A stretch of 64,000 bases of DNA, taken from NCBI RefSeq assembly GCF_947241125.1, contig NZ_OX365700.1, positions 434,001-498,000 on the forward strand, given 5' to 3'. Made by a program: the position numbers and the translations under genes. Shown one piece after another: positions 5,676 to 23,803 of the stretch (position 1 is its first letter; each line of letters begins with the position of its first letter). This DNA is from Nitrospira tepida. Its GTDB lineage: Bacteria; Nitrospirota; Nitrospiria; Nitrospirales; Nitrospiraceae. The notes under the pieces are model-generated. The model searched no databases, had not been told where the DNA came from, and was given only the letters and a program-made list of their open reading frames with translations.

Positions 5676-8600
5676 ATGAACGACGATCTCATCTGGCAAA
5701 CCAAACTTGCCGCCCGTCTTCACGACCCGGCGGAAAAGGCGCTCGTCTTGCTCCGGGACCCGGAGGGCCACGAGGGCGGGACGAGCCGTGCGCTGCATCG
5801 AGATTTAGGCTTCCACAATCTGCCGGTGAAAGAGTGGCTCGATCCGGATAATGCCCAGGTGCTCGATACCGTGCTCTTCAAACACGGTATCCCGATCGCG
5901 ATGTACAAAACCGTCAAGCGCGCCGACTGGTGGGCGGCGGGTGCCGATCGGCCCCAGTGGCCGGTGGATACTGTGCCGACAAAATCAGGCGAGACCACAA
6001 CCTCGAGGGTCGTAAATTGGGCGCGCGTGCGCTGGACGGAAGTGCCTGTCTTGATTCATCCGCTGACAGGCACACCATTCGACCTGGGCCATCTTGCTGA
6101 CACCGACATCGGGGATATCAAGGCCCGGAGCTTCGAGCACTTCTCGCGCTTGATTGTCAAAGAGGGGGAGCACGTCGATTGGAAACGGACGCTGCTGGCC
6201 TTCTGGCGCTTTGGGCCGGAACTGCGCGAGGGGAAAGACAGCGGGCAACTCGGCCATCTGTGGCCCCTGCTACCGGCGGAGACGCGCGTGCCGGATCATT
6301 CGATCTGGGATCATCTTGATCTCACTTCAGCATTCGCTGGTGGCTTCGCAAGCGATCCTCAAGGGGAAGTGGCCCTCTTGGCGCTGTCGATCGGGCCGGT
6401 CCAGTCCTTCATTGCGGCGGCCCGCTCGACGTCCGATCTGTGGGCCGGCTCGCATCTGCTGTCGCGGCTGTCGTGGGAAGCGATGAAGGTGGTGTGTGAG
6501 CGGCTGGGGCCGGACGCAATCCTGTTTCCACGGCTACGGGGCATACCCCAAGTGGATGTGTGGTTGCGCGACGAGATGAAACTGCCCGCACAATGGTTCG
6601 CAGGCTGCAACTGGACGGAAAGGACGACGGATGCGAATCCCCTTTTTGCCGCCGCCCTTCCCAACCGTTTTGTTGCGGTGGTGCCGGCCTCGCAGTCGCG
6701 CGAGATCGCACAAGCAGTTGAAGCTCGTGTGCGCACCTGGTTGCAGGACCTCGGAAAGAACATCGTGGATCGATTGCTTGAAGCAGCCGGCTTGGCTGAC
6801 GGGACGGACAAGCACTGCCACAGGCAGATGCGGGAGCAGCTCCAGGGCTTCCCGGAAGTGCATTGGGCGGCTGTGCCCTTTTCGCTGATCCGAGCTCGCG
6901 ACGAATCGAAGCAGACCGATCTCGACGTAACGCAGTTGTCCGAGGCCATGGCGCCTTTCTTTGGCGTGGCGCCGGGGCAAGCCTGTGGCTTTCTAGAAAC
7001 TCCGGCGTGGGAGGTGTTGCAGAAGGAGGCGAAGTTTGCTGATGGAACGACCTTCTTTTCACCAAAGCCGGGCGTCCTCTACCCGGCGGTGTACGACCTA
7101 GCCGAGCGCGTCCTTGCAGCAGCGAAAAGTGTGCGGTCGTTCGAACAGGTCGAACAGAAGGGCTGGCGCGATTCGCTGACCGGCGAGAGCGAATGGCTCA
7201 CGGACGATCCGGTTCTTCTGAACGTGCCGCCGGGCAAGCGGAAGAGCCGGAGAGACGAAGGCTTTAGGGAGGGCGACCATGTCGAGACACTCTGGACGCA
7301 CCTTGCCGACGAGAAGCCGGCATGGGCCAAGAAAGGCGAGCACCTCGGGGCACTGTCGGCCATCAAGCGGTTGTGGCCCTCCCTCTTTGCCGAAGAGGTG
7401 GCTCGGGCAACTGGCCAGCCGGTCGGTCAGGTGCCGCGCTTCGTCGTCTCCACGCACACCATGGCACTGGCGTACCAGCTCGACCAGTGGCTCGATGCCG
7501 GTGCGCCGATGGGTGGTGAGCTTCGCGATCGTCTCGCAGACACCGATTCGGTCCCCCTGCCTCGCAAGCTTGCCCGGAAATACGGCCAGCGTGATGTCTT
7601 GGAATTCGCCAAACGGTTGCCGGGCTTGCTCGATGCGGTACGCGAAGGCGAAAACGAACGAGCGCTGCGTAAGGTGGAGGGCCTGATCAAAGAGGCTTTT
7701 GCCCTGGCGGATGGCGGGCAAAAGGAAGTTCGCCTCGAAACCTACTATGCCCTCCTGCTGATGGATGGTGACCACATGGGCCGCATCCTCTCAGGCGATG
7801 CGCGGTATGCCATTACCTACCAGGAGAGCTTTCACCCGGAGGTGCAACAGAGGTTCAAGGAGCAAGCCCAACACCATGACACGATCAAAGCCTACGGCGA
7901 GCAGAAGCGCGCCTTGTCTCCCAATCGGCATCTCGCCATCTCCGGGGCCCTGAACGATTTCGCCCTTCACGTGGTTCCGGAAGTCATCGAAAGTGAACAC
8001 CTCGGCCGTGTCCTCTACGCGGGTGGTGATGATGTGCTGGCCATGCTGCCCGTGGTGGATGTGTGTTCGGCTATGAGGCGCTTGCGCTGTGGATACAGTG
8101 GGCATGACCCTGAACAGGCTGCGCTCGACTGGAGAGCTGTCCGTCGTGAGACGCGCATGGTCGTCAAGGAGGGATACGCTTTCTTGCGCGGACAGCTCAT
8201 GCGGATGATGGGAGAAAAAGCCACGGCCTCCTGCGGCGCGGTGATCGCCCATCATCAGGCTCCCTTGGCCATGGTGCTGCGGGAACTGCGCGCGGCGGAG
8301 CAGCGGGCGAAAAAAGAGGGCGGGCGCGATGCCTTCTCGATCACGGTCATCAAGCGGTCGGGCGGGGTCTTGTCGCTCACTGCCAAGTGGGGCGAACCGC
8401 TGGATGTGCTGGTGGCGCTGCGCAACTTTCTGGCGGAGCCGGCGGTGTCGCGCCGCGCGGTTTATAACAGCCTCCTGTGGCTTCAGGACCTGCCGCCCGA
8501 TGCGTCGGCTGGGATGCTGGGGAGTCTGCTCGCCTATCAATTTGGGCGACAGACCTCTCGCATTGAAGTGTGGCACAAACACGAGGGGCCTCTGCTCTCC

Positions 8601-8744
8601 AACCGAATTGCGGCGCTCGCATGCAAAGAGAAGGCTCGGCTCGACTGGCTCGCGCGCTTCATGGGTGTGGCGGAGTTCTTGGCCCGGGAAGCACGGGTTA
8701 ACGTGAAGGACGCAGAGCCGGCAACAGCAAAACTTAGCCGATAA
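5676..8744 (+). CDS. cas10: Type III-B Cas10 (Cmr2), cyclic oligoadenylate synthase subunit
   Basis: Cas10 is the large subunit of the Cmr complex. Its Palm domain makes cyclic oligoadenylate on target RNA binding and its HD part can cut DNA in some systems. The 1022-residue product shows an HD dipeptide at 16-17 (LAARLHDPAEKAL), a Cmr2 Palm entry near residue 240 (SIGPVQSFIAAARSTSDLW), and an intact cyclase motif GGDD at 783-786 within RVLYAGGDDVLAML. With GGDD intact, signalling to the three CARF proteins in this locus is expected. The HD region is short, so DNase activity is uncertain. It is followed 17 bases later by cmr3. Confidence 0.95.
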   Translation: MNDDLIWQTKLAARLHDPAEKALVLLRDPEGHEGGTSRALHRDLGFHNLPVKEWLDPDNAQVLDTVLFKHGIPIAMYKTVKRADWWAAGADRPQWPVDTVPTKSGETTTSRVVNWARVRWTEVPVLIHPLTGTPFDLGHLADTDIGDIKARSFEHFSRLIVKEGEHVDWKRTLLAFWRFGPELREGKDSGQLGHLWPLLPAETRVPDHSIWDHLDLTSAFAGGFASDPQGEVALLALSIGPVQSFIAAARSTSDLWAGSHLLSRLSWEAMKVVCERLGPDAILFPRLRGIPQVDVWLRDEMKLPAQWFAGCNWTERTTDANPLFAAALPNRFVAVVPASQSREIAQAVEARVRTWLQDLGKNIVDRLLEAAGLADGTDKHCHRQMREQLQGFPEVHWAAVPFSLIRARDESKQTDLDVTQLSEAMAPFFGVAPGQACGFLETPAWEVLQKEAKFADGTTFFSPKPGVLYPAVYDLAERVLAAAKSVRSFEQVEQKGWRDSLTGESEWLTDDPVLLNVPPGKRKSRRDEGFREGDHVETLWTHLADEKPAWAKKGEHLGALSAIKRLWPSLFAEEVARATGQPVGQVPRFVVSTHTMALAYQLDQWLDAGAPMGGELRDRLADTDSVPLPRKLARKYGQRDVLEFAKRLPGLLDAVREGENERALRKVEGLIKEAFALADGGQKEVRLETYYALLLMDGDHMGRILSGDARYAITYQESFHPEVQQRFKEQAQHHDTIKAYGEQKRALSPNRHLAISGALNDFALHVVPEVIESEHLGRVLYAGGDDVLAMLPVVDVCSAMRRLRCGYSGHDPEQAALDWRAVRRETRMVVKEGYAFLRGQLMRMMGEKATASCGAVIAHHQAPLAMVLRELRAAEQRAKKEGGRDAFSITVIKRSGGVLSLTAKWGEPLDVLVALRNFLAEPAVSRRAVYNSLLWLQDLPPDASAGMLGSLLAYQFGRQTSRIEVWHKHEGPLLSNRIAALACKEKARLDWLARFMGVAEFLAREARVNVKDAEPATAKLSR

Positions 8745-9948: not shown

Positions 9949-11983
<2,035 letters not shown>

Positions 11984-13404: not shown

Positions 13405-13674
13405 ATGGCACGAGTCGGTGTGCGGGAATTGCGAAACCACCTCAGCCGGTACTTAAAGAAGGTCAGGGGGGGAGAGGAACTGGAGGTCGCGGACCGAGGG
13501 CGAGTGATCGCCAGAGTGGTGCCGGCTGAACGCCGGGAAATCCCGGCCGAGGTCGGCGCTCTCGTGCGTGAAGGTGCGGCTACCTGGAGCGGCGGCAAGC
13601 CTAAGGGTGCGAAACGGCCGCTCGTGTTGCCCGGTCGTTCGGTGTCGGATCTGGTTATCGCGGATCGCCGATGA
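13405..13674 (+). CDS. Phd-type antitoxin
   Basis: The 89-residue protein (MARVGVRELRNHLSRYLKKV, then RGRVIARVVP) is a prevent-host-death family DNA-binding antitoxin. ATG 13405 follows CAGGGGG and is the natural start. It overlaps its toxin by four bases. It is co-oriented with the cas genes, unlike the first TA module, so it may ride on cas transcripts. Confidence 0.87.
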   Translation: MARVGVRELRNHLSRYLKKVRGGEELEVADRGRVIARVVPAERREIPAEVGALVREGAATWSGGKPKGAKRPLVLPGRSVSDLVIADRR

Positions 13675-14105
13675 TCCTCTACTGCGACACCAGCGCGCTG
13701 GTTAAGCTCTATGTGGAGGAGTCCGGCTCGTCGTGGGTTCGCCAATGGGTGGATGCCTGCCAGGTGGTGGGAATTGCCGCTATCGGGTATGTGGAAACCA
13801 AGGCCGCCTTCGCGCGAGCGGTTCACGGTGGCCGGGTGGTCCGGCGGCGGTATCGAGGAATCGTAGCGGACTTCGAACAGGATTGGAGCCGGTACCTCGT
13901 GCTGGAGATGAGCGAGCAGGTGATCCGGCAAGCCGGCCGGTTAGCCGAAGCGCATCGACTACGAGCCTATGATGAGGTTCACCTGGCTGCGGCACTGCAC
14001 ATTCGGACTCGGACTGCGGCGGAGGTCAACTTCCTGGGATTCGACGAAGAACTCAATCGGGCGGCGGGGGCAGAGGGATTGGCAGTGGTCCCGCCTCCGT
14101 CGTAA
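13671..14105 (+). CDS. PIN-domain toxin (VapC-like)
   Basis: The 144-residue PIN protein begins MILYCDTSALVKLYVEE and contains IGYVETKAAFARA and RAYDEVHLAAALHI, giving the D, E and D positions of a PIN nuclease. It pairs with the Phd antitoxin just upstream (ATGA overlap). Together with the module at 9949-10592 it places two Phd/PIN pairs on the two sides of cmr4-cmr6. Confidence 0.88.
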   Translation: MILYCDTSALVKLYVEESGSSWVRQWVDACQVVGIAAIGYVETKAAFARAVHGGRVVRRRYRGIVADFEQDWSRYLVLEMSEQVIRQAGRLAEAHRLRAYDEVHLAAALHIRTRTAAEVNFLGFDEELNRAAGAEGLAVVPPPS

Positions 14106-14188: not shown

Positions 14189-14980
14189 ATGCGCCTCCAC
14201 GTCGCCATCATCTCGGACCAGTCGCTTCCGACCGTCATTCCCTGCTTGATGGACCGGCCGGACGTGGTCGTGCTGGTCGCCTCGCGGGCGATGGAGGGCA
14301 AGGCGCGGCGGTTGCAGGCGCTGCTCCACACAGAGGGTCTCGCGGCGGAGATTCGGGACCTGGCGCCCGACGCGGGGCTTGTAGCCATTCGCGCCTCTGC
14401 GAGCGCGTTGTCGCGGGATCTGGCGACCGCCTGGCCCGACGCCGAGTTGGTGTTCAACGCCACCGGGGGCACGAAGCTCATGACGCTCGGATTTGTGGAC
14501 GTGTTTCGGAAGCGGGCCGCGCAGATCATCTACACGGATACGGCGCACGGTCGGATCGAAGTTATCGCCGATCGCCGGCAGGCGGACCCGCAGCCGGTGC
14601 CCATGCGCGACGTGCTGGATGTGCCGCGCTATCTTGCGGTGCAGGGGTTCCGGTACGCGGACGACGCCACGCGTCATGCCCTCAAACTGGAGCGGATCGA
14701 TGCCCGGCGAGAAGCGGCCCGGTTTCTGGCAGATCGGGCCCCCGGATTGAGCGGGCTCATTGCGCTGGTCAACGCCTTGGCGCATCGCGCGTTGGATGAA
14801 ACGGGCAAGGAATTGATTCAACCGGAACAGCGGCTCACGCGGGAACCCAGGGGTGAGGTGCCCAAGGCGCTCGCGCTCTTCGAGCGCGCCAGACTCATGA
14901 CACGGAAGGGCCCCGTGACCGTTCGCTTCGCGGATGTGGAGGCCGCCCGGTTTCTGGGCGGCGGGTGGTTGGAAGAGTAG
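14189..14980 (+). CDS. Card1/Can2-like effector, CARF half (ends at in-frame TAG)
   Basis: This is the N-terminal part of a DUF1887-family protein (Card1/Can2), a cyclic-tetra-adenylate-activated nuclease. The CARF signature ATGGTKLMTLG is at residues 91-101. The coding frame stops at TAG 14978-14980 right after GGGWLEE, a point where I would expect an aromatic residue and continuation into the nuclease domain. The same frame stays open afterwards to 15346 with an intact nuclease, so the two parts were one gene. It may be a recent pseudogene, a split two-chain effector, stop-codon read-through or a sequence error. Confidence 0.85.
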   Translation: MRLHVAIISDQSLPTVIPCLMDRPDVVVLVASRAMEGKARRLQALLHTEGLAAEIRDLAPDAGLVAIRASASALSRDLATAWPDAELVFNATGGTKLMTLGFVDVFRKRAAQIIYTDTAHGRIEVIADRRQADPQPVPMRDVLDVPRYLAVQGFRYADDATRHALKLERIDARREAARFLADRAPGLSGLIALVNALAHRALDETGKELIQPEQRLTREPRGEVPKALALFERARLMTRKGPVTVRFADVEAARFLGGGWLEE

Positions 14981-14989
14981 GCGTTTGCG

Positions 14990-15346
14990 GTGGCGAAGGA
15001 TGCCGGCCTCTACGACGTGCGCCTCGGCGTTACGGGCCTGTGGGAGGGCACGACGGCGGCGCGGAACGAGTTCGACGTGCTGGCCTGCGACCGGAACCGG
15101 CTGTTGTTTATCGAGTGTAAGACCCTCCGTTTCACCGGCGACGAGAACGACAACGACCTCGCGTACAAGGTTAAGAGTCTCGGAGAAGACGTCCGCGGCC
15201 TATTCGGGAACACATGGGTCTTGGCCGCACAGGAGCCGACGCCGGTGTTGAAGGATCGGGCGCAGCAGGCCGGGTTTCAGATCATCGGGCCTCGGTTCTT
15301 AGGGAGCCTGCCGCAATGGGTCCGCCTGTGGAGGGACGGCGGGTAA
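14990..15346 (+). CDS. Card1/Can2-like effector, PD-(D/E)XK nuclease half
   Basis: In the same frame as the CARF half, this part could restart at GTG 14990 (118 codons). It contains NEFDVLACDRNRLLFIECKT. Counting from the GTG, D29, E42 and K44 match the metal-binding and catalytic D, E-X-K of PD-(D/E)XK nucleases in the DUF1887 family. The only ribosome-site candidate is AGG eight bases before the GTG, overlapping the TAG, so re-initiation would be weak. No further stops or frameshifts are visible, so the domain is either still selected or very recently broken. The CRISPR leader follows directly. Confidence 0.75.
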   Translation: MAKDAGLYDVRLGVTGLWEGTTAARNEFDVLACDRNRLLFIECKTLRFTGDENDNDLAYKVKSLGEDVRGLFGNTWVLAAQEPTPVLKDRAQQAGFQIIGPRFLGSLPQWVRLWRDGG

Positions 15347-15453: not shown

Positions 15454-18400
15454 GTGGGAACCTCGACCTGAAGAAGAAGGGATTAAGACGCATAGACATT
15501 GATCGCTTTGCCACGGCGCGTCGTGGGAACCTCGACCTGAAGAAGAAGGGATTAAGACCAATCCAATCCAAACCAAAACTTTGTAGCGGCGTGGGAACCT
15601 CGACCTGAAGAAGAAGGGATTAAGACTATGAGCTGCCGCATGGGTACTTGAGCCATGGTCCGTGGGAACCTCGACCTGAAGAAGAAGGGATTAAGACCAT
15701 CAGAGAGCCACGCAATAAATTTCGCGTTCATGGGTGGGAACCTCGACCTGAAGAAGAAGGGATTAAGACACCCAGCGTCTACAGCAAGTCCTCGCTGTCA
15801 AAGCGTGGGAACCTCGACCTGAAGAAGAAGGGATTAAGACTGCACTTCAGTAGGTAGATGGGACAGCGTAGCTAGGAGTGGGAACCTCGACCTGAAGAAG
15901 AAGGGATTAAGACCAGCCTTGATAGCAGCAGCTTGCTGTTCTTGCGCAGTGGGAACCTCGACCTGAAGAAGAAGGGATTAAGACTGTGGACCTCGGACGC
16001 ATGTTCTTGCTTGTAGGTGGTGGGAACCTCGACCTGAAGAAGAAGGGATTAAGACTGATAGGGCGTCCCGCAATACGGGCACTCCCAGACCGTGGGAACC
16101 TCGACCTGAAGAAGAAGGGATTAAGACCTGTCTCCCGCTACGCAACCGGACGATATAGAGTGGGAACCTCGACCTGAAGAAGAAGGGATTAAGACCTGGG
16201 TGAGACTCATATGAGTGCGGAGTGCCTTGGTGGGAACCTCGACCTGAAGAAGAAGGGATTAAGACCACCCCATGCCATTTATCTTTATGTGAGGCTTCAG
16301 TGGGAACCTCGACCTGAAGAAGAAGGGATTAAGACGAATGAGCGCATTCACGTTCGTGCTGACCTCAATAGTGGGAACCTCGACCTGAAGAAGAAGGGAT
16401 TAAGACCATGAGTCGCTCAAGCATTTTTAGGTGTTGCCCAATGTGGGAACCTCGACCTGAAGAAGAAGGGATTAAGACCGCCCGCATACTTGATGATCCT
16501 AAAATTGACGGTAGTGGGAACCTCGACCTGAAGAAGAAGGGATTAAGACGCCATCAGCGGTCACGAGCTTATACGCGATGAGGGGATGTGGGAACCTCGA
16601 CCTGAAGAAGAAGGGATTAAGACGCAGGTCGCTCCCGCTCAGGTTGCTCCCGCGCAGGTCGGTGGGAACCTCGACCTGAAGAAGAAGGGATTAAGACCGA
16701 TATCCTCCCTCATCATTATTTCCTCGCATTCGTAGTGGGAACCTCGACCTGAAGAAGAAGGGATTAAGACATGCTGTGTGCCCGTCCATTCCTCCCTCCT
16801 TGGTTGTGGGAACCTCGACCTGAAGAAGAAGGGATTAAGACCTATATATGTGCTTCATGGTCTCCTCCTCTCCCGCGTGTGGGAACCTCGACCTGAAGAA
16901 GAAGGGATTAAGACCACTAGCTTGACATGCCTCATAATCGCTCGCTTTTCGGTGGGAACCTCGACCTGAAGAAGAAGGGATTAAGACAAAAAGGCGACCT
17001 CTCGTTTCGCCACTGCAAGAGCGTGGGAACCTCGACCTGAAGAAGAAGGGATTAAGACTCGCTATCGAAACTGACTTCTCCCTGCCCTTCGGCGTGGGAA
17101 CCTCGACCTGAAGAAGAAGGGATTAAGACATAGATCAGCGTACGGAGATGAGTCACGATCCACATAGTGGGAACCTCGACCTGAAGAAGAAGGGATTAAG
17201 ACCGTCTGCAATGATTGGTTTGGATCGGTTGTACGTGGGAACCTCGACCTGAAGAAGAAGGGATTAAGACAATTATGCTGGATGGTCCTCTCCTATTCGA
17301 TCTCCGTGGGAACCTCGACCTGAAGAAGAAGGGATTAAGACAATTATGCTGGATGGTCCTCTCCTATTCGATCTCCGTGGGAACCTCGACCTGAAGAAGA
17401 AGGGATTAAGACGATGCTGTGCAGATGTGGAATCGCATGGTCTCCTCGTGGGAACCTCGACCTGAAGAAGAAGGGATTAAGACGCTTTCAGGCTATCGAT
17501 TGCAGCCATTAGTCTGGTGGGAACCTCGACCTGAAGAAGAAGGGATTAAGACATACCCGTCCGGGTAGCAGTTCTCCCACCCGTCCCCCGTGGGAACCTC
17601 GACCTGAAGAAGAAGGGATTAAGACATCACATTGATGTAGTATACATGTCGTACAGAGCCGTCGTGGGAACCTCGACCTGAAGAAGAAGGGATTAAGACC
17701 TATGCCCTGTATCTTTATGTGAGGCTTCATGGTCCCGTGGGAACCTCGACCTGAAGAAGAAGGGATTAAGACACCACACCGTTGATTTTTTCTCAGTCGT
17801 GTCGCGTGTGGGAACCTCGACCTGAAGAAGAAGGGATTAAGACCACCCCCCTGTCTCGTACCCCCTTAACTGGTAAGCTGTGGGAACCTCGACCTGAAGA
17901 AGAAGGGATTAAGACGCCTGGACGACGAAAGCCTCAAGGTCGTCCTCCGTGGTGGGAACCTCGACCTGAAGAAGAAGGGATTAAGACATCCGTGCGCGCC
18001 GCAATCTGCACAATACGCGTTATCCGTGGGAACCTCGACCTGAAGAAGAAGGGATTAAGACTCCATCTAGCCCATATATCGCATATTGCACGAGTGGGAA
18101 CCTCGACCTGAAGAAGAAGGGATTAAGACACGGATCTCAATATCAATTAGGTAGTTTTCGAGTTCTGTGGGAACCTCGACCTGAAGAAGAAGGGATTAAG
18201 ACGTAGTCGTCGCATTCAAAGACGCTGTGGCCTGGATCGTGGGAACCTCGACCTGAAGAAGAAGGGATTAAGACCTGCTTCGCCGCCGCAATCGCCCGCG
18301 CAATCGCCTTCCGTGGGAACCTCGACCTGAAGAAGAAGGGATTAAGACAATGCTCATCCCACATTACATCCTCGACCGGCCTGTGGGAACCTCGACCTGA

Positions 18401-18929
18401 AGAAGAAGGGATTAAGACCCATTGCCGCGCACCCCAAATGAGACCTCCGGTTCGGTGGGAACCTCGACCTGAAGAAGAAGGGATTAAGACGTCGCATCGC
18501 ACCATTGGATGTGGCTATGGTCGCTCAGTGGGAACCTCGACCTGAAGAAGAAGGGATTAAGACTGCTTTTGCCCATCGCTTTTTGTCTCTGTGATACAGA
18601 GTGGGAACCTCGACCTGAAGAAGAAGGGATTAAGACCCCACGGGCGTGGCGCTTAATTATGCTGGTACTTCCTCGGTGGGAACCTCGACCTGAAGAAGAA
18701 GGGATTAAGACTGATGACTGGCTGGTCCATCTCCCTCTCCTTTCTGTTGTGGGAACCTCGACCTGAAGAAGAAGGGATTAAGACACTTGCTTGCCACTGT
18801 CTGTTCGAGGCGCGTCCAAAGTGGGAATCTCGACCTGAAGAAGAAGGGATTAAGACGCAGACAGCCGCTCCGCCTCTTGAACCGCCTGTTCAAGTGGGAA
18901 TCTCGACCTGAAGCAGAAGGGATTGCACC
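15454..18929 (+). CRISPR. CRISPR array, 49 repeats of 36 bp and 48 spacers
   Basis: The 36-bp repeat begins GTGGGAACCTCGACC and ends GGGATTAAGAC. The last eight bases (ATTAAGAC) would form the crRNA 5' tag. I counted repeat starts from 15454 to 18894 with a mean spacing of 71.7 bases; spacers are about 32-39 bases. The first 47 repeats look identical. Repeat 48 (18821) has CCT changed to TCT, and repeat 49 (18894-18929) is degenerate with an altered 3' end, marking the trailer. Spacers 26 and 27 (17271-17305 and 17342-17376) are identical. Cas6 at 22793 is the likely processing enzyme and the Cmr complex the user. Many spacers read as antisense of genes. Confidence 0.99.
17271..17412 (+). repeat. 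Duplicated spacer-repeat unit in the array
   Basis: Spacers 26 and 27 are identical 35-mers starting AATTATGCTGGATGG, each followed by a perfect repeat. The 71-bp unit was duplicated, most likely by recombination between repeats or replication slippage. Confidence 0.95.
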
Positions 18930-19224
18930 TTGCTCGGCCTTCAGACGTGCCCGCCGAGATCGCGCTAGCACCACGAAACAGTCGGAACGTATGAAGGGTC
19001 CGGCGCCCTGGCCTCTTGCGCGAGGCGCGTCATGCGAATATGGAAGACCTCCATCATCGGCTTCAGAGTCTCGCAGGACTCTGATTCCCGCGGCTCGCCC
19101 CTGAATCCATAGCCCTCTCCGTCGATTGACGCCTGGCCGTGGCGGCGTGTTTCGGCAATGTTTCCGTGCTTGCTCGCGTGGGGCCATTCCAGTAAGAAAG
19201 GAGCCGGTCAGACGGAGGTCAGTC
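18930..19224. other. Intergenic region after the array
   Basis: About 295 bases lie between the degenerate last repeat and the TIGR02710-type gene. I find no gene in either strand. It contains a copy of the 14-bp dyad element (19153-19166) and, near its end, the ribosome site of the next gene. No terminator with a T-run is visible for the array transcript. Confidence 0.5.
19153..19166. promoter_or_regulatory. Dyad element copy 3, upstream of the CARF-HEPN gene
   Basis: CGGCAATGTTTCCG is identical to the copy at 4453-4466 before cmr1 and lies almost the same distance (58 bases) before the start codon. It is a candidate shared operator. Confidence 0.45.
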
Positions 19225-20478
19225 ATGCCGAAAGCATTTGTACAGTCCGTGGGGACCGGGACGCGGCAGGACCAGGACATCACCCGGCCGCTGGTGTGGC
19301 ATTGGAGGCGAAGCGGCGCAGGATTCACCGTGTGGGTCGTGAGCGAACAGAGCCGCGCGCATGCGGAACGGATGGCGCATGCGCTTGAACTGTCACCCGC
19401 GCAGTACCGAATTGAAATGGTCAGCGACACGGACAATGTCGAGGCCGTCTATCGCGACTGTCTGGCGCTGCTCCGCGATCTGGGACAACAGGGATTCGAG
19501 CCCGACATGATCGAAGTGGACTATACCAGCGGCACAAAGGCCATGACGGCGGGTTTGGTCCTGGCAGCGGTCGCGCATCGGTGCGGGACGCTGAGCTATA
19601 TCAGCGGGGAACGGCATGGCGGCGTCGTGGCGAGCGACACCGAACGCGTGGTGTCCATCGAGCCCCGGCGCATCTGGGCGGATGAGCGGCTGAGACTGGC
19701 CGGCGAGTATTGCCGCGCCTTGCGCTTCGATGCGGCGCTCACGCTGCTCGACAGTGTCAAACCCGTCTGGTTGGGCGACTACGAGCGCCGGCTCGCCGCC
19801 GGCCTGCGGTTGATCGGGACTGGCTACGGGGCGTGGGATCGCTTCGAGTATGGGCGCGCCTCCGGCGAGTTGCGCAAGTTACGGGAGTCGGCGGTGCCGG
19901 ATCTCGACCCGTTCCGGCCGGAGCAGTCCGTGTTGACGCGATTGGTGGCGCTCACTCCCGCGAATGGATTTTCGGCCGACCGGCTGGCCGACCTGTACAA
20001 CAATGCCGGCCGGCGCCTGGACGAGGGCCGTTGTGACGACGCGCTGGCCCGGTTGTATCGACTGACGGAGATGCTGGCCCAGTGGATCTTGCACGGACAA
20101 TACGGGATCGATACCGCCGACGTGGACCTAGCCAAGGCTCCGACTCCGCTTCAGGCGCAGCTTGCAGCCCGCCGCTCGGCCGAGGGCAAGATCCTCATCG
20201 GGCTGGACCTGGATTACCAACTTCTGAAGGCGTTGGACCATCCAGTGGGCCGGCACTTCGACGAGGGCGAATGGCGGGGGATCGGGGTACTGCTCAAGAA
20301 GCGCAACGTGTCGCTCTTGGCTCACGGCCTTGAGCCCGTCTCGAAGAAGGATCTTGAGTCGTTGCGGGACAAACTTCAGGCATTGGTGGCGTTGGAAGTG
20401 CCCGATTTCGTCGACCGGCGTCGCGCGCTGGAATTTCCCTGGCGTCGCGGAAGGGAGGTCGCAAGTGGAGCAGGATGA
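19225..20478 (+). CDS. CARF-HEPN ribonuclease, TIGR02710 family (Csm6/Csx1-like)
   Basis: This 417-residue protein belongs to the TIGR02710/Cas02710 group. A CARF core with VDYTSGTKAMTAGLVLAA (residues 98-115) binds cyclic oligoadenylate. The C-terminal helical region carries RNVSLLAH (R360 to H367), an R-X6-H motif of HEPN ribonucleases. On activation it would degrade RNA nonspecifically, causing dormancy. ATG 19225 follows GGAGG. The stop overlaps an in-frame upstream ATG of cas2, so it is co-transcribed with the adaptation genes. The family call is from sequence pattern only. Confidence 0.82.
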   Translation: MPKAFVQSVGTGTRQDQDITRPLVWHWRRSGAGFTVWVVSEQSRAHAERMAHALELSPAQYRIEMVSDTDNVEAVYRDCLALLRDLGQQGFEPDMIEVDYTSGTKAMTAGLVLAAVAHRCGTLSYISGERHGGVVASDTERVVSIEPRRIWADERLRLAGEYCRALRFDAALTLLDSVKPVWLGDYERRLAAGLRLIGTGYGAWDRFEYGRASGELRKLRESAVPDLDPFRPEQSVLTRLVALTPANGFSADRLADLYNNAGRRLDEGRCDDALARLYRLTEMLAQWILHGQYGIDTADVDLAKAPTPLQAQLAARRSAEGKILIGLDLDYQLLKALDHPVGRHFDEGEWRGIGVLLKKRNVSLLAHGLEPVSKKDLESLRDKLQALVALEVPDFVDRRRALEFPWRRGREVASGAG

Positions 20479-20510: not shown

Positions 20511-20789
20511 ATGCGGCGGTTATACCTCATCGCGTATGACGTGTGTGATCCGGGACGGCTGAACCGTGTCCGCGAGCTGCTGAAAGCCTATAGCACCGGG
20601 GGACAGAAATCGGTGTACGAGTGCTGGCTCACACCGGCCGAATTGACCGAGGTCACGGAGACGTTGCGGCGATTGATCGACGCGACCGTGGATCGCGCGC
20701 ACGTCGTTACATTGGACGGCCGAAGCCGACCGCACACGTTGGGCATTGCGGTGCCGCCGGCCGACCCGGCGTTCTTTTATTTCGGGTGA
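20511..20789 (+). CDS. cas2: Cas2, first copy
   Basis: Cas2 forms the dimeric core of the Cas1-Cas2 integration complex. The 92-residue product begins MRRLYLIAYDVCDPGRLNRV, the normal Cas2 first strand with its conserved Asp, followed by SVYECWLTPAEL. ATG 20511 was preferred over ATG 20475 (which overlaps the previous stop) because the Cas2 fold begins here and GAGGAG precedes it. cas1 follows eight bases later. Confidence 0.93.
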   Translation: MRRLYLIAYDVCDPGRLNRVRELLKAYSTGGQKSVYECWLTPAELTEVTETLRRLIDATVDRAHVVTLDGRSRPHTLGIAVPPADPAFFYFG

Positions 20790-20797
20790 TTCGAAGG

Positions 20798-21787
20798 ATG
20801 GGCGGAACCGTCTACATAGACCGCAGGGACGCGGAGCTGAGGGTGGATGGCGGGGCGCTCGCCGTGTACGTGAACGGCGAGCGGAACGGAACGGTGCCGC
20901 TGGCGCCGGTGGACCGGGTGGTGTTGGTGGGGAATCACAAGGTCGAAACCGCCGTGCTCCACCGCCTCTCGGAGCAGGGCATCGCCGTGCTCTTTCTGTC
21001 CGGACGGACCCAGGCCTATCGAGGCCGGCTGGTCGGCCGTCTGCACAACCACGCGCGCCTGCGCGTCCGCCAATATGCGGAAAGCCGCGGGCCGCTTGCG
21101 CTTGAGCTGGCGATGGAATGGATCGCGGCCAAGCTCGCCGGGCAGACCGCGTTGCTGCGGGAGGCGGCGGATGCGCGGCCGGAAGCACGAGCGAGTCTGC
21201 TGCGGGCTGCCGAAATCGTCGGCGACGCGCGCGACAAGGTCGCCGGCGCCGACACCCTGGCCCGCTTGCGCGGCTTGGAGGGTGGAGCGGCGTCGGCGTA
21301 CTTCGGCGCGCTTCCGGCGCTCTTTCCGCCGAGCCTCGGATTCGAGGGACGCGAACGCCGTCCCCCGCGTGATCCGGTCAATGCGTTGCTCTCGCTCACC
21401 TATACCCTGGCCCACTGGGAGTGGGTACGGGAGTGCGAGGTCATCGGCCTCGATCCGCTCATCGGTTTTTACCACGAGTTGGAGTATGGCCGGGAGTCGC
21501 TGGCCTGCGATCTCCTCGAACCGTTCCGCCCGACGGTGGATCGGTGGGTGTGGGAACTGTTCAGAACGCGGCAGTTCGAGCAACGCGATTTTACGTCGGA
21601 CGCCGGCCGGCCCGGCTGCGCCCTCAAGAAGGCGGCCAGAGGACGCTACTACGCGGCCTATGACGCGTGGATCGCTCCGCACCGGTCGCATATGCGGGAG
21701 ACGGTTGAGGCTCTGGCGCGAAGAGTCGTGGACCATGGAGAGAACGCTGTATCTGAACGAAGTGCCGGGGTTGCGTGTCAACCGTGA
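20798..21787 (+). CDS. cas1: Cas1 integrase, complete active-site copy
   Basis: Cas1 is the metal-dependent integrase that inserts spacers at the leader-repeat junction. The 329-residue product has the beta-rich N-terminus (TVYIDRRDAELRVDGGAL) and the helical catalytic lobe. The expected metal ligands are present: E161 in LRGLEGGAASAYF, H226 in GFYHELEYG, and D238/E241 in ACDLLEPFRP. GTG 20786 is an alternative in-frame start. Its last 53 bases overlap the second cas1-like gene in another frame, implying translational coupling. There is no fused reverse transcriptase. Confidence 0.96.
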   Translation: MGGTVYIDRRDAELRVDGGALAVYVNGERNGTVPLAPVDRVVLVGNHKVETAVLHRLSEQGIAVLFLSGRTQAYRGRLVGRLHNHARLRVRQYAESRGPLALELAMEWIAAKLAGQTALLREAADARPEARASLLRAAEIVGDARDKVAGADTLARLRGLEGGAASAYFGALPALFPPSLGFEGRERRPPRDPVNALLSLTYTLAHWEWVRECEVIGLDPLIGFYHELEYGRESLACDLLEPFRPTVDRWVWELFRTRQFEQRDFTSDAGRPGCALKKAARGRYYAAYDAWIAPHRSHMRETVEALARRVVDHGENAVSERSAGVACQP

Positions 21788-22514
21788 CGGCCCGTCGCTG
21801 TGGATCGAGCGGCGCGGCTCGGCTGGACGGCGGGTTCCGGTCCGGCTGGTTCGCCGGGTCCTGATCGCGGGCAACGTGGCGCTCGATACGGGAAGTCTGA
21901 CGGCCTTTGCGGAGCGCGGCGTGCCCGTCGCCTTCCTGAATCGGGCCGGCGAACCGGTGGCGATGGTGATCGGATGCGCGGCGGGGCTGTTCGCGCGCCG
22001 CGCCGAGCAAGCGGCGGCCTTGGAGGACCCCGGAACGCGGGAGCGATTGTCGGCGTGGCTCCGGGCATGGGAACGAGGGCGCCGGCTCACCCTCGCCTCC
22101 CGGCTCGATCCCGTGACCGCGGCACGGTGGCGGCGGGAGGGCCTGCGTCCGCTGGACTACGACACCTGGATCGCGCGGCAGGCCCGCCTGCGCGGCGCGT
22201 CCCCGCGGCGGCGCGGCTTCTTTCACGCCGCGCTCCACACGCTGGCCCTCGAGCGGATTTCGGAGGCCGGATGGGATCCTCATCTGGGCGTGCAGCACAG
22301 GGCGCAAGGCTTGGGCTTGGTTCGAGACTGTGTAGTCGCCCTCCAGGCCGACGCCGACCAGGCGTGGCTGGAGAGCGGAGGGGTCGAGGTCGGTCTTTCA
22401 GATGGAACCGTGTCCCCGGCCTTAGCCGCCTATTTTGAAACCCGCCGCCCTCGCTTGGCGGCGTTCATGCGCCGGCTGCTCGATCAATACGAAGCCATTA
22501 TTCGCGGACGTTGA
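21735..22514 (+). CDS. Divergent second Cas1, predicted catalytically inactive
   Basis: The 259-residue product has a recognisable Cas1 N-terminal sheet (TLYLNEVPGLRVNRDGPSLW, then VRRVLIAGNVALDTGSL and FAERGVPVAFLN) and part of the helical lobe (GWDPHLGVQHRAQGLGLVRD). Compared with the neighbouring Cas1 it is about 70 residues shorter and lacks the LEG-AAR-YF segment with the first catalytic Glu. H188 and D198 can be aligned with the metal His and Asp, but the final acidic ligand position is Val. This suggests a structural, not catalytic, Cas1 paralogue. It overlaps cas1 by 53 bases and is followed three bases later by its own cas2. Confidence 0.8.
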   Translation: MERTLYLNEVPGLRVNRDGPSLWIERRGSAGRRVPVRLVRRVLIAGNVALDTGSLTAFAERGVPVAFLNRAGEPVAMVIGCAAGLFARRAEQAAALEDPGTRERLSAWLRAWERGRRLTLASRLDPVTAARWRREGLRPLDYDTWIARQARLRGASPRRRGFFHAALHTLALERISEAGWDPHLGVQHRAQGLGLVRDCVVALQADADQAWLESGGVEVGLSDGTVSPALAAYFETRRPRLAAFMRRLLDQYEAIIRGR

Positions 22515-22517
22515 CGT

Positions 22518-22796
22518 ATGCGGAGCCGTTACCTTGTGTGCTATGACATTGCCGACGAGGGCCGGTTGACCCGCCTGCACCGGTATCTCAAGAGCATCGG
22601 GGTGCCGGTGCAATATTCCGTGTTCCTCTGCTCGCTGACCTGGCCGGAGTTGCAGGAGGGCTTATCCCGCATCCGCGATCTGATCGACGCGACGGCCGAC
22701 GATGTTCGAGTCTACCCCCTCCCGGCCGATGAGCCGATCACGTCGCTGGGGTCCGGAGACCGCACCCCGGAGGGCACAGTGGTGGTGCTGCCGTGA
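22518..22796 (+). CDS. cas2: Cas2, second copy
   Basis: This 92-residue protein begins MRSRYLVCYDIADEGRLTRL and has SVFLCSLTWPEL, a normal Cas2 fold with the conserved Asp. It clearly differs from the first Cas2 and has a different C-terminus. It directly follows the divergent Cas1, so the order cas2-cas1-cas1-like-cas2 suggests two distinct Cas1-Cas2 pairs or a mixed complex. Its stop overlaps the GTG start of cas6. Confidence 0.9.
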   Translation: MRSRYLVCYDIADEGRLTRLHRYLKSIGVPVQYSVFLCSLTWPELQEGLSRIRDLIDATADDVRVYPLPADEPITSLGSGDRTPEGTVVVLP

Positions 22797-23803
22797 GCGA
22801 GCCGCTTCGGGATAGTGAAGGAGCCCGCGCGTCCTTGCCGGTCACCTTCGGCCGGTTCACGATCGCGCTTGCAGCCGACGCGGCGCTGTGGCTCCCTTCT
22901 TACGCCGGTTCCATGTTCCGCGGCGCCTTCGGTCATGCGCTCCAACGGGTCGTCTGCGCGACGCGGACGTACGACTGCGCCCCCTGTCTGCTCAGGGACC
23001 GCTGTGTGTATCCGTACGTGTTCGAGACGCCCCCGCCTGAAGGCACGCGGGTGATGCGCAAGTATCCGGCGGCGCCGCACCCGTTTGTGCTCCAACCGCC
23101 GGCGGGCGGACGCACGCTGGCTCCCGGCGAGGCATTTGAGCTGGGCCTCACGTTGTTCGGCCGGGCGCTGCGGTGGCTCCCGCACTTCATTTTTACCGTT
23201 GAACGGATGGGCCGCGTCGGATTCGGCTCCCGGCGCGTTTCGGCATCGGTCCTCCACGCGGATGGTTGGCTGGACGGGCGCGCTTGCCGGATCTATTCCG
23301 CCGAGGACCGAACGCTCGCCGCGACCGAGGCCTGTACGCAGGCAGCCTACCTGCCACCGCGCCCGCAGATCGGCGGCGCCGATCATCCGCCTGACGGACG
23401 AATCGCGGTCGAAATCGTCACCCCGCTCCGGGTGAAGTACGAGGAGCGACTTGCGACATCGCTCGAGTTTCATATCCTGGTCCGCGCTCTGCTTAGACGG
23501 ATCGCCCATCTGGCCTATTTTCATTGCGACGGCGATCCATCGGGCATGGCGTTTCGTGAATGGATCGACCTCGCGCATGCCGTGCGGGTCGCTTCATCTA
23601 CCCTGACGTGGTACGACTGGACCCGCTACTCGCAACGACAGCAGGAGACCATGCAGCTTGGTGGACTGGTCGGTCGCGTCGTCTTTGAGGGCCCCGTCGG
23701 GCCATTTCTGCCGCTGCTACGCCTGGGCGAGGTGACCCACGTTGGAAAGGCGACAGGTTTCGGATTAGGACGGTATCGGGTGCTTGATCCCCACGCTGAA
23801 TGA
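22793..23803 (+). CDS. cas6: Cas6 pre-crRNA processing endoribonuclease
   Basis: Cas6 cuts within repeats to release crRNAs. The 336-residue product is a tandem-ferredoxin RAMP protein of the type seen with III-B systems: YAGSMFRGAFGHAL at the N-terminus and a closing glycine-rich loop GKATGFGLGRYRV. A cysteine set C55-X6-C62-X2-C65-X5-C71 could bind zinc, as in many relatives. It starts at GTG 22793, overlapping the second cas2 stop by four bases, so it is translationally coupled to the adaptation genes. Confidence 0.9.
   Translation: MSEPLRDSEGARASLPVTFGRFTIALAADAALWLPSYAGSMFRGAFGHALQRVVCATRTYDCAPCLLRDRCVYPYVFETPPPEGTRVMRKYPAAPHPFVLQPPAGGRTLAPGEAFELGLTLFGRALRWLPHFIFTVERMGRVGFGSRRVSASVLHADGWLDGRACRIYSAEDRTLAATEACTQAAYLPPRPQIGGADHPPDGRIAVEIVTPLRVKYEERLATSLEFHILVRALLRRIAHLAYFHCDGDPSGMAFREWIDLAHAVRVASSTLTWYDWTRYSQRQQETMQLGGLVGRVVFEGPVGPFLPLLRLGEVTHVGKATGFGLGRYRVLDPHAE

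Follow-up and report, generated by a model that had tools for sequence, protein, structure and literature searches.

Why should a CRISPR adaptation operon carry a second Cas1 that seems to have lost its active site, and with it a second Cas2? We addressed this question in a window of 64,000 nt (G000:C1:434001-498000), the whole stretch of DNA analysed here, which belongs to a single-contig genome of 4.73 Mb; positions given alone refer to the window. The first-pass annotation had read positions 20511-22796 as cas2, cas1, a divergent cas1 and cas2, followed by cas6, all overlapping or nearly so. Gene coordinates and a Pfam scan of the module proteins agree with that order and confirm two Cas2, two Cas1 and one Cas6. 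We call the first four genes cas2a, cas1a, cas1b and cas2b:

5676..8744, plus strand: cas10/cmr2 of the adjacent type III-B effector operon (TIGR02577 match at G000:C1:440375-442315, window 6375-8315)
15454..18929, plus strand: CRISPR array of 49 repeats with the 36-nt unit GTGGGAACCTCGACCTGAAGAAGAAGGGATTAAGAC and spacers of 32-39 nt
19126..20478, plus strand: csx1/csm6-type CARF-HEPN gene directly upstream of cas2a (TIGR02710, 174 bits; Pfam Csm6 HEPN, 109 bits)
20511..20789, plus strand: cas2a, 92 aa, the upstream Cas2, of a clade distinct from cas2b (Pfam Cas2, 53 bits)
20798..21787, plus strand: cas1a, 329 aa, canonical catalytic Cas1 (Pfam Cas1, 262 bits; AF2 pLDDT 83)
21735..22514, plus strand: cas1b, 259 aa, predicted pseudo-enzyme Cas1 (Pfam, 47 bits, N-terminus only; PADLOC PDLC01185)
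22518..22796, plus strand: cas2b, 92 aa, the downstream Cas2, of the second clade (Pfam Cas2, 61 bits)
22793..23803, plus strand: cas6, 336 aa (Pfam Cas6, 69 bits; PADLOC, 336 bits)

All genes from csx1 to cas6 share the plus strand and overlap or nearly so: cas1a and cas1b overlap by 53 nt, cas1b and cas2b are separated by 3 nt, and the start of cas6 overlaps the stop of cas2b. The cmr operon and the array lie upstream, and CARF genes also accompany the cmr operon in the window. Scanning the module proteins and their immediate neighbours with Pfam, NCBIfam and PADLOC revealed no reverse transcriptase domain, either fused or adjacent, and the module does not belong to the RNA-acquiring RT-Cas1 type. 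No cas4 was seen in the locus, and there is no Rfam family within 9000-30000 of the window.

Several features of the surroundings are recorded here in their own right. A Card1-type CARF nuclease at 14189-15346 is split by an in-frame TAG (14978-14980) into a CARF piece (14189-14980) and a nuclease piece (14990-15346) in the same frame; a relative at L075 1132-2262 is intact. The region of the cmr operon also holds two antitoxin/PIN-type toxin-like pairs (9949-10640 and 13417-14105, one of them on the minus strand), VapBC-like as judged by eye. The same genome encodes another cmr2 and two more cas1 genes that belong to other CRISPR systems (G000:C1:1610039, 1898999 and 1591994); arrays, which outside the window were read in the vicinity of known cas1 and cmr2 genes only, lie near both of these cas1 genes.

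Cas1a carries a complete catalytic set. The residues that had been singled out in the first Cas1, E161, H226, D238 and E241, are correct and invariant in 40 of 40 homologues, judged against E. coli E141, H208, D218 and D221. The best PDB sequence match of Cas1a is the Cas4/Cas1 fusion 7mi4.

Cas1b is different. It had been described as a 259-residue protein that keeps H188 and D198, has Val at the last acidic position and lacks the segment with the first Glu. The letters are right: profile-profile alignment with hhalign (probability 98) places D198 on Cas1a D238 and V201 on E241. D198 is the sole position of the catalytic set kept throughout the 61 Cas1b sequences gathered (D in 56, E in 5). 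H188, in contrast, is present in the window but does not stand as a conserved feature, being histidine in 34 of 61, and position 201 is elsewhere mostly Y, H, M or R. As to the first Glu, AF2 models place Cas1a helices at 128-150 and 154-175, the latter carrying E161, and Cas1b helices at 126-135 and 139-153. The helix at 139-153 matches the E161 helix with a shorter N-terminus, in agreement with the missing segment. Cas1b E135-G136 can be aligned to Cas1a E161-G162 without gaps, and E135 of the window protein could lie near the first-Glu position; position 135 is not conserved among homologues.

The full catalytic set that marks an active Cas1 integrase is kept in none of the 61 sequences. 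Only L014 combines the histidine with acids at both 198 and 201, and its residues 135, 138 and 139 are all non-acidic. Because replacing any single one of the four canonical residues by alanine leaves E. coli Cas1 without nuclease activity (PMC4046053), Cas1b is very probably catalytically inactive, a prediction made from sequence. The initial call of a dead second Cas1 is thus supported, and a complete metal site, which we looked for, did not turn up in any homologue.

Is Cas1b then merely a broken gene? Its AF2 model (pLDDT 90.5, pTM 0.87) predicts a complete Cas1 fold with both the N-terminal beta domain and the helical domain, matching Cas1 structures with Z of about 19-23 over 224-257 residues and rmsd of 2.7-3.7 (VIA-align), and the Pfam match is above cut-off. 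Length is conserved at about 250-300 aa. The dN/dS of cas1b is 0.11-0.17 in nine of ten close-relative pairs and 0.38 in one very close pair, and cas1a gives similar values; cas1b encodes a real protein under purifying selection. A truncated gene with no conservation of length and fold, the other outcome named at the outset, was therefore not what we found. In the tree, Cas1b diverges about 2.2 times faster than Cas1a, and at the same loci its conservation is higher in the N-terminal domain (2.36 bits) than in the helical catalytic domain (1.71 bits), whereas the two domains of Cas1a stand at 2.57 and 2.55 bits with an active-site peak of 3.42. In Cas1, the N-terminal beta domain contributes to the contacts of the dimer and to those with Cas2. 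The 7kfu chain that best fits the Cas1b model is the one with the Cas6-RT lobe ordered, assigned to the non-catalytic protomer (PMC8102632). This modelled conformer match is suggestive only, a hint toward the place of Cas1b, because the Cas1a control model settles into neither known protomer conformation. A phage or plasmid origin of Cas1b was also considered and rejected, as no Cas1b was found in plasmids or viral contigs.

To see how cas1b travels, we gathered loci with the window Cas1b (P0003), the PADLOC profile and alignments. The four-gene order recurs in about 60 loci of Nitrospirota and Deltaproteobacteria-type genomes: it is cas2a-cas1a-cas1b-cas2b wherever the contig allows, loci with a displaced cas2a aside, with cas6 before or after. 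In L120 and L121 about 3 kb separate cas1a from cas1b. For an unbiased survey we searched 396 Nitrospirota genomes with a Cas1a alignment; the scores fell into two groups, and 47 genomes passed the Cas1a-clade cut-off of at least 297 bits. Downstream cas1b and cas2b accompany cas1a in 46 of these 47 loci. The exception is the complete genome G077 (L203/L246), which carries cas2a-cas1a-cas2b without cas1b and has the same repeat family. It represents either natural loss or the ancestral state, and since this module lacks cas1b the gene has been dispensable at least once. Conversely, we saw no cas1b without cas1a among the gathered loci, except at contig ends.

A tree of 111 Cas1 sequences resolves Cas1a (support 97) and Cas1b (94) as one clade each, with matched branching. 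Their distance matrices correlate with a Mantel r of 0.915, a value reached by none of 5000 shuffles and partly reflecting the shared ancestry of one operon. The suggested search asked whether a cas1-like/cas2 pair always neighbours a normal cas1-cas2 in type III loci: the pair does stand beside a normal cas1-cas2, and the locus is of type III wherever the neighbouring effector could be typed. Beyond the window, csm/cas10 or cmr genes are found in L025, L120, L123 and L061 and CARF genes in L016, L028, L075 and L139, as expected of a type III adaptation module with cas10 effector genes and CARF effectors; some loci have no effector in the fetched flank.

Two loci of this collection may be noted separately. 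In L120 (7001-10296), cas1a and cas1b are separated by a CARF-adenosine-deaminase gene and a CARF gene of the same strand. L083/L247 (G157) is a single cas1-cas2-cas6 locus with a related repeat, whose Cas1 scores between the Cas1a clade and ordinary Cas1s; it is possibly a sister to the module.

The two Cas2s are likewise distinct. They form separate clades, and profiles assign 32 of 32 Cas2a and 41 of 41 Cas2b proteins to their own position. One Nitrospira clade has no cas2 preceding cas1a. We rejected loss of cas2a as the explanation: in two genomes the second Cas2 lies about 13.7 kb off and in three it sits on another contig, displaced by inserted genes, and all five displaced proteins score as Cas2a (155-162 versus 58-66 bits). 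In G272, csx1 still flanks the displaced cas2a, and SCO1- and cytochrome c-like genes intervene. A sixth genome, G378 (87% complete), yielded a single Cas2. Since the split operons keep a displaced Cas2a orthologue in five genomes, both Cas2s appear to be needed. The insert in G272 (L139 2638-13975) places about 11-12 kb of non-CRISPR genes between cas2a and cas1a, including a 2249-aa ORF without a Pfam hit.

Does Cas1b leave a mark on the spacers? The repeats of module arrays belong to one family, whose members end in AAGGGATTGMGAC or a near variant; G077 has this family too. The proposal of a length ruler fails on spacer lengths, which are no tighter in module arrays (standard deviation 1.5-2.9) than in single-Cas1 arrays (0.8-2.3). 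The 461 module spacers are strongly antisense to genes, with a purine fraction of 0.564 on the reverse complement and the SD+ATG motif occurring 44 times on the reverse complement versus 7 times forward; this bias is absent from other CRISPR arrays in these genomes or in related ones. It is no evidence for Cas1b, because L196, a type III array that has no cas1b, shows it to an equal or greater degree, and such bias has been published as general in type III (PMC8482600) and ascribed to selection in T. thermophilus (PMC7515739). On these grounds we rejected RNA- or strand-aware capture by Cas1b, and the suggested role as a prespacer selector is left without specific support. In the window array, several spacers read on the reverse complement as a ribosome site and start codon, for example AACCAAGGAGGGAGGAATGGACGGG; the adjacent spacers at 17271-17305 and 17342-17376 have the same sequence, and a further two have part of one apparent gene start in common. 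Comparison of the window spacers with phage records gave no match.

Cas1b has been noticed before, since the PADLOC profile PDLC01185, labelled 'Cas1, diverged variant, second in the loci', refers to the same gene. The window protein sits second behind a canonical cas1 and matches the profile over residues 5-227 of 259 with a weak score (24.6 bits, E 4e-6). Among the 396 Nitrospirota genomes the profile hits 38, finding cas1b in most of them, and it also matches a few ordinary or fused Cas1s (L083, L085, L091 and L095). PDLC01185 is a label only, and the active site, the second Cas2 family, the obligate pairing, the taxonomic spread and the mechanism are not in it. Our search of the open-access literature, with subscription papers outside its scope, found no description of the four-gene module, the loss of the Cas1b active site or the second Cas2 family.

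How does the module relate to known integrases? The 4:2 Cas1-Cas2 heterohexamers of E. coli I-E, P. aeruginosa I-F and Cas6-RT-Cas1 share with it the Cas1 fold, the Cas2 partner and the array beside the module. However, in those complexes both protomers are one polypeptide and there is one Cas2, while here there are two Cas1 genes, one of them predicted dead, and two Cas2 families. Cas4-Cas1-Cas2 systems (types I-C and I-G) offer an analogy in that integrase asymmetry comes from an extra protein; here no cas4 was seen, and the proposed asymmetry would be supplied by Cas1b, predicted dead, together with the additional Cas2. Inactive Cas1-solo group 1 comprises Cas1 homologues in which the active-site set is incomplete (PMC4046053). 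They are found on their own, away from CRISPR loci, whereas Cas1b is locked in an operon for CRISPR adaptation and accompanied by a Cas2 of its own.

As first suggested, Cas1b is naturally read as a partner, structural or regulatory, in the capture of spacers, because the protein is predicted to be dead, is conserved in length and fold, always stands beside a normal cas1-cas2 and has its own Cas2. Of the versions of that suggestion, the heteromeric integrase is the one we favour; the ruler is not supported, and nothing specific speaks for the selector. In one Cas1-Cas2 integrase structure, catalytic and non-catalytic Cas1 protomers coexist within the dimer as the same polypeptide (PMC8102632). 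The simplest reading is that this lineage gave the non-catalytic place a gene of its own, and likewise two Cas2 genes, which would yield a true heteromer. We thus regard as probable an obligately hetero-oligomeric type III integrase with Cas1b as its non-catalytic protomer, where both the physical complex and the position of Cas1b are what we infer. Cas1a would be the catalytic Cas1; Cas1b, a paralogue with catalysis lost and fold kept, would most likely fill the non-catalytic protomer of each Cas1 dimer; and Cas2a and Cas2b, two specialised Cas2s, would probably link these dimers to each other, either paired as a heterodimer or forming two alternative dimers. A non-catalytic subunit fixed in a gene of its own would have a surface released from the demands of catalysis, and the resulting built-in asymmetry might benefit leader-repeat docking or the holding of one prespacer end. 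A more specific version is offered tentatively, as a possibility we hold rather doubtful: a fixed-asymmetry heterohexamer of Cas1a, Cas1b and a Cas2a/Cas2b heterodimer, whose dead half would read the leader-repeat or one prespacer end and so give polar spacer entry into type III arrays without a PAM or Cas4.

Alternatively, Cas1b and Cas2b may form a separate complex that captures, measures or hands over prespacers, or acts as a leader-repeat docking or regulatory factor. Each Cas1 does adjoin its own Cas2 of a distinct family, and Cas1b has a full predicted fold in which residues at the former active-site loop have become conserved anew, among them H183 (H in 53 of 61; T, L, V or F in Cas1a). 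However, cas1b overlaps cas1a and, contig ends aside, never occurs without it, cas1a lacks cas1b once in 47, and neither the strand bias nor the length of the spacers bears a Cas1b-specific signature; we consider the separate complex unlikely, if credible. A negative regulator of adaptation, which would occupy a Cas1 place and lower integration activity, is very unlikely. Translating an inactive paralogue together with its active enzyme is a classic dominant-negative design, and the conservation of cas1b fits; yet such a role leaves unexplained both the conserved, distinct second Cas2 and near-universal retention over deep divergence.

Retained or regained nuclease or integrase activity at a remodelled site (for example H183, H188 and D198) is highly improbable. 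The acid at 198 and the histidine at 183 are well conserved, but the last acidic ligand is gone in nearly all sequences, H188 varies, and in the most distant group, L120-L123, H188 has become D and D198 has become E. E235 (60 of 61) is a conserved acid of ordinary Cas1 and no new ligand, and the single-alanine results in E. coli Cas1 (PMC4046053) argue against activity as well. A decaying duplicate or annotation artefact without function would fit the faster divergence of Cas1b, but with length, fold and order conserved across phyla, mostly low dN/dS and 46 of 47 loci retaining the gene, it is almost certainly wrong.

Because known integrases use one Cas1 and one Cas2, the jobs of the catalytic and non-catalytic protomers are genetically inseparable in them. 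If a hetero-oligomeric integrase with Cas1b as the non-catalytic protomer is indeed what the module encodes, separate genes would hold the two Cas1 roles and the two Cas2s, and each would be mutable on its own. This would bear on how a near-symmetric integrase chooses orientation and on how type III systems acquire spacers without a PAM, and Cas1b would be an example of a pseudo-enzyme turned into a lasting part of an immune-memory machine.
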